Program-made: the position numbers and the translations under genes
Assembly: GCA_902632055.1 (NCBI GenBank)
Contig: CACPAS010000007.1
Location: forward strand, 1-47,577
Source: an uncultured OCS116 cluster bacterium
GTDB lineage: Bacteria; Pseudomonadota; Alphaproteobacteria; Rhizobiales; TMED25
DNA length: 47,577 bases
Direction of reading: 5' to 3'
The notes under the pieces: generated by a model
What the model was told of the DNA's origin: nothing
Seen by the model: only the letters and a program-made list of their open reading frames with translations
Database searches by the model: none
Part shown: positions 38,690 through 47,577 of the stretch, piece after piece
Numbering within the stretch: position 1 is the first letter of the stretch
Layout: each line of letters starts with the position of its first letter

Positions 38690-38750
38690 ATTCTCCTTTT
38701 TAGTGCTTTGACAGTTGTCAGGTGCACAATTTGGTTAAATCACCTGATTT
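38690..38750 (-). promoter_or_regulatory. SAM-V-like riboswitch aptamer at the bhmT ribosome binding site
   Basis: On the minus strand CAGGTG (38746-38741) pairs with CACCTG (38724-38719), enclosing TGATTTAACCAAATTGTG. GTGC in the loop can pair with GCAC (38706-38703) downstream, making an H-type pseudoknot as in the SAM-II/SAM-V fold. TAAAAAGGAG follows, so forming the pseudoknot places structure next to the AGGAG (38697-38693) that lies 6 bp before the ATG. This suggests SAM-dependent block of translation. The class is inferred from fold, core TGATTTAA and context. Confidence 0.75.
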
Positions 38751-38755
38751 TTTGT

Positions 38756-38883: not shown

Positions 38884-38930
38884 ATGATATCTTAAATACT
38901 GAGATCAAAATTGAAAATTAATGTATTTAT

Positions 38931-39200
38931 GGGGGCGTTCTGTTGCCAGGTGCCCCCAGACCCCGCCGTATCTTGCTAGAGATAAGGACTTAAGTTTCGG
39001 TGCTCAAGCTGACTATGCAGCTACTGCGACCGGAGCATAGTTGTCATTTGCAACTATAAAATTAGCCCGATAACGGTGGTACAATACCGAGTAAAAGGTA
39101 GCCCTTTACGCTCTCGTCGATCCTGTTTCGCCCCCATGATTTTTATTGGTGGAGGCGCCGGGTACCGCCCCCGGGTCCGATAAGTTTATTTTGACGCCAA
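38931..39200 (-). ncRNA. ssrA: Transfer-messenger RNA, circularly permuted two-piece form
   Basis: On the minus strand an acceptor piece ends TCGGACCCGG..CCCGG-CGCCTCC-A-CCA (CCA at 39149-39147), then a short A/T-rich loop, then the coding piece opening GGGGGCGAAACAGGATCGACG at 39135. GGGGGCG pairs with CGCCTCC as the seven-bp acceptor stem, so the canonical ends are joined internally: a permuted gene. The tag frame (39051-39013) reads ANDNYAPVAVAA-stop after ATAGTT, close to the E. coli resume context. The coding piece ends in a pseudoknot, TCTG-GGGGGC..CAGA..GCCCCC, at 38957-38931. The 5' limit of the acceptor piece is approximate. It rescues stalled ribosomes and marks products for ClpXP with SspB. 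Confidence 0.93.
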
Positions 39201-39317
39201 TTTATTACTATAGCTCAAAGAGCAGAACTATAATAATCCCAAATACGTATCAAATAAAGTTTATTATAAATTTATTTCACACTTCGCATGCGCTTGTGAA
39301 TCAGTCATAATTGAAAA

Positions 39318-46194: not shown

Positions 46195-46258
46195 AAAAAA
46201 TTGATTAATTTTTCTATATGAAATATATTGGGATAAATTTATTATTTTTAATTATATT

Positions 46259-46303
46259 ATGTACTTGAATAAAAAACTGCTAGTCGTCTTGTGTGTCACC
46301 TGA
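46259..46303 (+). CDS. ilv leader peptide (attenuator peptide)
   Basis: A 14-codon ORF, MYLNKKLLVVLCVT, upstream of acetolactate synthase. Six of 14 residues are Leu or Val, with runs CTG CTA GTC GTC TTG, and it ends just before a set of competing hairpins and a terminator. This is the layout of branched-chain amino acid transcription attenuation: stalling at Leu/Val codons when these amino acids are short should favour read-through into ilvB. No Ile codon is present. A strong ribosome binding site is not visible, so translation is inferred. Confidence 0.75.
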   Translation: MYLNKKLLVVLCVT

Positions 46304-46357
46304 GTCCCCCGGGGTTCTTGATGGTGATACTTTGATAGGGGCAAACGCCCCTTTTTT
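46294..46357 (+). terminator. ilv attenuator: competing hairpins and intrinsic terminator
   Basis: The terminator is GGGGC (46338-46342)-AAAC-GCCCC (46347-46351) followed by six T. Upstream, TGTCACC (46294-46300), overlapping the end of the leader ORF, pairs with GGTGATA (46323-46329). CCCCC at 46306-46310 can pair either with the adjacent GGGG or with the GGGG of the terminator stem, giving a mutually exclusive antiterminator. A ribosome stalled on the leader would cover the 5' arm. Confidence 0.8.
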
Positions 46358-46408: not shown

Positions 46409-47577
46409 ATGGGTAAAAAAATTACAGGAGCAGAAATAGTAATCCAAACACTTCACGATCAGGGTGTTGACTCTGTTTTTGGTTATCCGGGTGGCGCCGT
46501 GTTGCCAATCTATGATGCCATATTTCAGCAGGAAAAAGTGAAACATATTCTTGTTCGTCATGAACAAGGCGCATCCCATGCCGCGGAAGGCTATGCGCGT
46601 TCAACTGGAAAAGTTGGCGTTCTTATTGTTACTTCTGGACCAGGAGCCACAAATGCAGTTACAGGGCTAACAGATGCTTTACTAGACTCCATTCCTATAG
46701 TTTGTATAAGTGGCCAGGTTCCAACACATCTAATTGGAACTGACGCTTTCCAAGAGGCTGATACTGTTGGTATTACAAGAGCATGTACAAAGCACAATTG
46801 GTTAGTAAAAGATATAAAAGATCTGCCGCGTATAATGCACGAGGCATTTTATATAGCTAGATCAGGTCGTCCTGGTCCAGTTTTAGTTGATATTCCAAAA
46901 GATATACAGTTCGCTGAGGGGGACTATGAGAATTTATCCAAGACTACACACAAAACATATACACCCCCAAAAACAATTGATAATAAAGCTGTAACACAAG
47001 CTGTTGATCTCATGCAAAGGGCAAAGAGACCAATAATTTATTCGGGTGGAGGCATAATTAATTCGGGTCCTCAAGCATCAAAATTATTACAAAAATTTGT
47101 GCAAAAGACAAACATGCCAATTACATCCACACTAATGGGTCTTGGCGCATACCCAGGTTCGGGTGATAATTGGTTGGGTATGCTGGGTATGCATGGTACC
47201 TATGAAGCAAATATGGCGATGCATGATTGTGATTTAATGCTTTGTATTGGTGCAAGATTTGATGACAGGATTACAGGAAAAATTGATGAATTTTCCCCAA
47301 ACTCAAAAAAAATTCATGTAGATATAGATGCAACGTCGATAAATAAGAATGTCGAAGTGGACTTGTCTATAATTGCTGACTGTGGAAAGTTTTTAAATGA
47401 AGCTATCAAAATTATGGATAATAGAGGTAATAAATTCCAATCCTTCGATCTATGGTGGAAGAAAATTGAGTCATGGAAAAAAGTAAATTGTTTAAGATAC
47501 AAACCTAATTCAGATGTAATCATGCCACAATACGCAATTCAAAGATTATATGAATTAACAAAAAATAAAGATACATA
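46409..47577 (+). CDS. ilvB: Acetolactate synthase large subunit, 3' end cut by window
   Basis: Open from ATG 46409 (ribosome binding AATAGGA) to the window end, about 389 codons of an expected ~580; absent from the ORF track because no stop is reached. TPP enzyme forming acetolactate for Val/Leu and acetohydroxybutyrate for Ile. FGYPGGAVLPIYDA and VRHEQGASHAAEGYARSTGKVGV contain the catalytic Glu of the TPP-activating site, TSGPGATNAVTGLTDALLDSIP and SGRPGPVLVDIPKDIQ follow, and the central FAD/DHAP-like domain has IGARFDDRITGK. The regulatory subunit ilvH/ilvN would be expected next. Controlled by the attenuator upstream. Confidence 0.95.
   Translation, partial: MGKKITGAEIVIQTLHDQGVDSVFGYPGGAVLPIYDAIFQQEKVKHILVRHEQGASHAAEGYARSTGKVGVLIVTSGPGATNAVTGLTDALLDSIPIVCISGQVPTHLIGTDAFQEADTVGITRACTKHNWLVKDIKDLPRIMHEAFYIARSGRPGPVLVDIPKDIQFAEGDYENLSKTTHKTYTPPKTIDNKAVTQAVDLMQRAKRPIIYSGGGIINSGPQASKLLQKFVQKTNMPITSTLMGLGAYPGSGDNWLGMLGMHGTYEANMAMHDCDLMLCIGARFDDRITGKIDEFSPNSKKIHVDIDATSINKNVEVDLSIIADCGKFLNEAIKIMDNRGNKFQSFDLWWKKIESWKKVNCLRYKPNSDVIMPQYAIQRLYELTKNKDT

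Follow-up and report, generated by a model that had tools for sequence, protein, structure and literature searches.

The window, the whole 47,577-nucleotide stretch of DNA analysed here, carries a 14-codon open reading frame, a hairpin overlapping its stop codon and a GC-rich stem with a U-tract in front of an acetolactate synthase gene. The initial annotation had read this arrangement as a leader-peptide attenuator that responds to Leu and Val more than to Ile and that is thrown by an unusually simple four-base switch. The locus thus raises the question of whether an attenuator is present, which amino acids it would sense and how read-through into the gene would be decided.

The locus in front of ilvB

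All parts named in the initial annotation, the ORF, the hairpin, the GC stem and the U-tract, were found at the positions given for them (Table 1). No clear Shine-Dalgarno sequence or ribosome-binding site precedes the leader ORF MYLNKKLLVVLCVT. The 3' end of the ORF supplies the 5' arm of the 8-bp base of hairpin P1, and the apical helix includes part of the stop codon. An intrinsic terminator, which reads AGGGGCAAACGCCCC followed by T's in the DNA, stands between the leader ORF and the first structural gene. Folding of the leader region, which had been recommended as a check, predicted both P1 and the terminator, and the 141-nt fold was more stable than 200 of 200 shuffles (z = -3.1). A terminator scan returned two terminator-like sites where 0.1 was expected, and none of 20 order-1 random windows with matching dinucleotide composition contained an ORF with an Ile/Leu/Val run plus a downstream terminator. 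In the minimum-energy fold of the window, the leader start also pairs with the sequence around and after the U-tract. This pairing was discarded, as it was judged by reading to be A-rich/U-rich complementarity of a kind common in an AT-rich genome, and to come too late for any effect on termination.

Table 1. Positions of the features in the window.
Feature	Position	Strand	Basis or remark
SAM-V riboswitch	38690..38754	-	above Rfam gathering score
Alphaproteobacterial tmRNA gene	38928..39262		
miaA	45289..46194		gene directly upstream of ilvB
Predicted sigma-70-type promoter TTGATT-17-TATATT	46201..46229	+	consensus scan and comparison
Overlapping ORF MKYIGINLLFLIILCT	46218..46268		
Predicted transcription start	~46235		from the promoter
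Leader-peptide ORF MYLNKKLLVVLCVT with stop	46259..46303 (ATG at 46259, TGA 46301..46303)	+	14 codons, read from sequence
Control codons CTG CTA GTC GTC (Leu Leu Val Val)	46277..46288	+	conservation and host rarity
Fifth control codon GTC	46295..46297		
Hairpin P1	46293..46330	+	folding and 12-leader alignment
P1 base	46293..46300/46323..46330		8 bp
P1 apex	~46302..46308/46312..46319		
CCCCC, proposed as switch	46306..46310	+	5' side of P1 apex
GGGG, first run	46311..46314		
GGGG, second run	46338..46341		
Intrinsic terminator AGGGGC-AAAC-GCCCCU and U-tract	46337..46357 (stem-loop 46337..46352)	+	folding and terminator scan
ilvB, acetolactate synthase large subunit	46409..47575	+	profile matches; window end cuts gene

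The ilvB product matched the NCBIfam profiles PRK09107 (E 1.5e-209) and TIGR00118 (E 3.7e-155), which identifies the gene behind the site as that for the large subunit of the biosynthetic acetolactate synthase, in an alphaproteobacterium. Six further matches within the genome reached 25-33% identity only. Two ORFs follow ilvB in one congener (L011), one small-subunit-like and one ilvC-like, ilvN and ilvC being assigned by reading the translations.

A promoter is predicted upstream of the ORF. Both hexamers were kept, with 16-17 nt spacing, in 11 of 11 genus loci examined, and also in 2 of 2 of the sister genus, where the second hexamer reads TATAAA. The family total amounts to 13 of 13 leaders with the predicted promoter upstream of the ORF; transcription starting downstream of 46303, which the initial annotation had named as incompatible with its reading, is therefore not what the comparison predicts.

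The same region holds a second, overlapping ORF, MKYIGINLLFLIILCT, which contains Ile and Leu runs and passes the same scan for Ile/Leu/Val codons plus terminator. That this Ile-containing frame is the real leader is hardly credible, because the predicted -10 box is downstream of its ATG and because, among the other congeners listed, only L014 retains it, and that in part. The hairpin might also merely terminate miaA, which ends about 140 bases before the terminator, and have no part in the regulation of ilvB. The intervening sequence, however, holds the conserved promoter and a coding ORF that is itself conserved, and leader and terminator occur also where miaA is not upstream, as in the Sinorhizobium meliloti record with its opposite-strand neighbour, so that we consider this explanation very improbable.

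Many relatives across the class likewise have miaA as the immediate upstream neighbour of ilvB (e.g. L025, L032, L036, L038 and L039). The miaA C-terminal motif was found upstream of ilvB on the same strand at 28 of 65 loci, with a pattern so strict that several congeners escape it. In Escherichia coli, miaA (trpX) affects attenuation, and the miaA-ilvB neighbourhood may for this reason not be accidental.

Kept and rare control codons

The conservation of the element was followed in a genus set of congeners and two sister-genus genomes that had been gathered by protein searches. The covariance model of this set had its sole window match at 46259-46357 (108.5 bits) and found one strong copy in each of the 12 genus genomes, always before ilvB. 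A weak second match appeared in one congener (G005:C20:3205-3283, L357; E 0.018), and no convincing second leader copy before other genes was found by the model in the 12 genomes. The congener peptides follow the consensus M(M/I/F)YLN..LLVV.C(I/V)T and stop, with LIVV in L014. In all 12 genomes a short ORF rich in end-product codons, LLVV(L)C(V/I), thus precedes the biosynthetic operon. The GTC GTC pair is identical throughout the genus and the Leu codons vary mostly synonymously (CTG/CTA), while the residues that precede the control codons vary among K, R, N and T. Of two adjacent start positions, one or both hold ATG in every leader: the pair reads ATT-ATG in the window and ATG-ATG, ATG-ATT or ATG-TTT in the congeners. 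Leu and Val codons that persist while their flanks drift are what the initial annotation had expected of a genuine leader, and homologues lacking the ORF or the Leu/Val run, which would have told against it, were not encountered among the genus leaders.

The geometry around the hairpins is similarly constant. The spacer between P1 and the terminator is 6 nt long in each of the 12 leaders measured from the genus and the sister genus, the terminator GGGG is invariant within the genus, and the median distance from the last control codon to the P1 base is about 7-8 nt in both the genus and the Hyphomicrobiales. Across the 12 leaders the P1 base is paired in 100% and the apex in 83% of cells; for the whole P1 structure the value in the genus alignment is 92.9%, compared with 45-58% when the structure is slid along the alignment. 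Two-sided changes were seen at three pairs of the apex. In the shuffle control the number of pairs with such changes was not significant (311/500), and covariation of P1 within the genus is to be taken as supportive rather than strong.

The window leader contains no Ile codon, as had been noted. This is literally true of the window and untrue of the family: ATC occupies the position of the fifth control codon in 10 of 12 genus leaders, and GTC stands there in the window and in genome G007 (L356), as well as in one of the two sister-genus leaders (L021). The replacement lies in the 5' arm of P1, where an A-U pair becomes G-U and pairing is preserved. With ATC in 10 of 12 leaders, the missing codon reads as a local Ile-to-Val change and not as a property of the system. 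A specificity for Leu and Val rather than Ile, proposed on this ground, is not borne out for the system, since most Hyphomicrobiales leaders also carry Ile, Leu and Val codons.

In 94 of 94 leaders, which are related and do not count as 94 independent cases, the Ile, Leu and Val codons of the control run were rarer than expected from ilvB of the same genome, used as a proxy for genome usage. Mean log2 values for the control codons were -1.63 in 12 AT-rich and -1.86 in 82 GC-rich hosts, compared with -0.39 and -0.88, respectively, for the other leader codons. The codons chosen differ with host composition. CTG provides 66% of Leu codons in the control run versus 4% in ilvB of AT-rich hosts, and 0% versus 58% in GC-rich hosts. 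For Val, GTC is favored in the control run of AT-rich hosts (84% versus 8% in ilvB) and GTA in that of GC-rich hosts (40% versus 2%). Within the window, CTG makes up 7% of Leu codons and GTC 13% of Val codons in 32 long ORFs. The tRNA matches typed in one congener whose genome is nearly complete included one tRNA-Val(GAC), for GTC, and no tRNA-Leu(CAG). According to established theory, codon choice sets the sensitivity of an attenuator, and experiments on the leu attenuator support this (PMC1183508). A reversal of control-codon choice linked to composition was not found described earlier in a limited literature search. Because the control codons are rare in every leader tested and their choice is reversed with composition, the pattern fits selection on the decoding of the codons rather than on the peptide.

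Search for an antiterminator

According to the initial annotation, CCCC at 46306 would pair with GGGG at 46311 for termination or with GGGG at 46338 for antitermination. The bare complementarity exists in the window. The four pairs with the terminator arm can form, the duplex reaches -7.9 kcal/mol, and a truncated RNA with the ribosome past the P1 5' arm adopts the CCCC-terminator fold; with G-U pairs counted, 88.9% of cells over the genus are paired between the terminator G's and the pyrimidines opposite them. A conserved choice between two partners, however, did not emerge. A run of at least four C is found in 4 of 12 genus leaders (the window, L011, L012 and L356), the duplex weakens to about -3 kcal/mol in several (e.g. 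L017 and L019), and at equilibrium the terminator outcompetes the CCCC pairing. No pair between CCCC and the terminator GGGG has changes on both sides in the genus alignment; the supported partner of the C-run is the purine-rich opposite side of the P1 apex, where the two-sided changes occur. Judged by its occurrence in 4 of 12 leaders, the loss of energy and the lack of two-sided changes, the pairing with the terminator is present in the window and no kept feature. Together with the swap test on 99 relatives described below, which detected no matched complementarity, this makes the four-base switch an unlikely mechanism.

The swap test is based on the premise that, with an antiterminator, the terminator 5' arm matches its own leader better than the leaders of others. 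Averaged over 99 Hyphomicrobiales leaders, of which single ones including that of S. meliloti may pair partially, the match of the terminator 5' arm to the upstream RNA was -8.49 kcal/mol for own and -8.63 kcal/mol for swapped leaders (z +1.1). This absence of a signal had first been seen with 55 leaders. In the same 99 leaders P1 gave z -22 and the terminator z -12, and matches were detected in both positive controls, the Trp leaders (z -3.5, 21 leaders) and the Thr leaders (z -6.4, 28 leaders). Complementarity between the terminator arm and the P1 3' arm was lower within a leader than after swapping (z +3.5). The terminator 3' arm with the U-tract had no signal against all upstream RNA and a small one against the P1 3' arm (-0.34 kcal/mol, z -3.0). 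The pairing of the textbook three-hairpin arrangement (1:2, 2:3, 3:4) was thus not recovered in the 99 leaders, and membership in that type is not claimed for the window element. For the Rhodobacterales the swap test of P1 gave z -0.1, the 5' arms there being nearly identical.

Two folding schemes were applied to a classical antiterminator, and it was rejected in both for the window genus and the Hyphomicrobiales. In equilibrium folding with a stepped ribosome front, the terminator formed at nearly every position. When the terminator 5' arm was followed in the interval before synthesis of the 3' arm, its sequestration had the wrong sign: as averages from nearest-neighbour folding, which ignores tertiary contacts, the predicted values were 0.75 with the ribosome at the stop codon versus 0.11-0.56 at the control codons in the genus, and 0.46-0.49 versus 0.12-0.41 in the Hyphomicrobiales. 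The sign predicted for the Rhodobacterales was right for a classical antiterminator, with 0.52 at the first control codon and 0.18 at the stop.

In the Rhodobacterales the P1 3' arm and the terminator 5' arm share about 3 nt (CCCATGCGCC and CCCGA), and P1 looks homologous there, with a shared RMG-type 3' coding end. P1 could accordingly be a true competing antiterminator in the window genus as well, through an overlap or a tertiary contact missed by nearest-neighbour folding. A competing fold that escaped the tests would not be surprising, and we regard this explanation as an appreciable, if minority, possibility. It has to accommodate a gap of 0-8 nt with no overlap between P1 and the terminator in the Hyphomicrobiales and the window genus, as well as the better match of the terminator arm to swapped P1 3' arms.

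Irrespective of how P1 acts, we favor the element, with a probability of about 0.88, as a ribosome-mediated transcription attenuator of ilvB(NC) that senses charged branched-chain amino acid tRNAs. This reading is supported by the single strong copy before ilvB in 12 of 12 genomes, the kept control codons, the fixed geometry, the self-matched P1 and terminator, the rarity of the control codons, the same design in relatives and the published alphaproteobacterial ilvB leaders. Against it count the sequestration values, whose sign is wrong for a classical antiterminator, the predicted formation of the terminator at nearly every ribosome position and the lack of a clear ribosome-binding site. The proposal of a leader-peptide attenuator before acetolactate synthase in an alphaproteobacterium is upheld by the kept codons, the predicted promoter and the position before ilvB. 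Leader translation, ribosome stalling and regulated read-through are taken over from the known attenuator class and would proceed as follows. Transcription would start just upstream of the short leader ORF. In times of plenty the ribosome would pass the host-rare Leu/Val(/Ile) codons undelayed and reach the stop codon in P1; P1 would be opened, the terminator would form, and RNA polymerase would stop there. With charged Leu-, Val- or Ile-tRNA in short supply, the ribosome would pause at the foot of P1, where the control codons lie. On the first of these codons it would let P1 fold fully, and on the last it would cover about half of the P1 base. An at least partly folded P1 would then lead to more frequent read-through into ilvB. 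As a working guess only, P1 and the stalled ribosome, at 6 nt from the terminator, might block it sterically or by stacking. Extended to the Hyphomicrobiales, the attenuator would have no classical antiterminator, P1 folded against the stalled ribosome would block termination by its adjacency, and the Rhodobacterales would have kept or evolved an overlapping, classical P1; we put this forward tentatively and consider it rather doubtful. Two testable points are of wider use: the rarity of the control codons with its reversal of codon choice by composition, and the failure to detect a textbook antiterminator in a large and conserved set of attenuators.

Relation to known attenuators

The design extends well beyond the genus, which its nearest relatives suggest belongs to the Hyphomicrobiales. 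The same order of parts before ilvB was found in many genomes of the order sample, from which 55 leaders were used for tests. In a scan of named relatives, mostly Hyphomicrobiales and Rhodobacterales with S. meliloti and Pseudorhodobacter turbinis added, a mechanical rule recovered leader and terminator in 71 of 82, including S. meliloti (MKNFAVILVVGRRMGRMV), whose record was found in a plasmid search with a generic acetolactate synthase stretch, used as a probe only. Homologous leaders with the same order of parts are thus present in related orders, and the ilvB leader design spans Hyphomicrobiales and Rhodobacterales. Under the same rule, leader and terminator were missing in several genomes of the same order and in most of the class-wide sample. 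Viral contigs yielded two distant ilvB relatives only. In S. meliloti and some relatives (L214 1270-1315; L023; L024) a -10-like box precedes the leader ATG by about 8 nt, and with this spacing the transcript of an S. meliloti-type ilvB leader may start at or beside its start codon. The leader transcript of S. meliloti trpL begins at or next to its start codon (PMC10117765).

The Rfam families of Leu, Thr, Trp and His leaders gave no match to the element at gathering score or at E values up to 1. The only Rfam match to the element was Ref1C, with 21.2 bits against a cut-off of 90. Elsewhere in the window the Rfam search found alpha_tmRNA and RNase P class A, in line with an alphaproteobacterial host, and a SAM-V riboswitch adjoins the tmRNA gene.

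With the enterobacterial Trp and Thr leaders (Rfam RF00513 and RF00506) the element would share ribosome-mediated attenuation, and it has control codons and an intrinsic terminator as they do. In those leaders the terminator arm matches the upstream RNA (z -3.5 and -6.4), whereas in the Hyphomicrobiales ilvB leaders it does not (z +1.1).

Closer counterparts are the ilvB/ilvIH attenuators that Vitreschak et al. reportedly predicted in alphaproteobacteria in 2004, with a short ORF of branched-chain amino acid codons, a hairpin and a terminator. The window element has these same parts before a biosynthetic acetolactate synthase operon. It differs from the ilvB leaders of relatives in belonging to an AT-rich genus, in a peptide without the GRRMG-type end and, in the window species, in Val for an Ile codon. 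Most of the Rhodobacterales leader peptides listed (L215, L257-L293) have an RMGR end. An ilvB leader peptide in alphaproteobacteria is mentioned in a passage of PMC1273637 (citing Vitreschak 2004), and a passage of PMC4117421 (citing Tarleton 1994) describes attenuation in the Caulobacter ilvBN leader through tandem Ile/Val codons, ribosome pausing and a Rho-independent terminator. The Caulobacter crescentus attenuator likewise precedes ilvBN; it has Ile codons and is backed by experimental work, whereas the window element is known from its sequence. The element is a real, conserved and ordinary member of the alphaproteobacterial ilvB leader attenuators, a kind already known; it places an uncultured AT-rich lineage in this regulatory family and adds a large comparative set.
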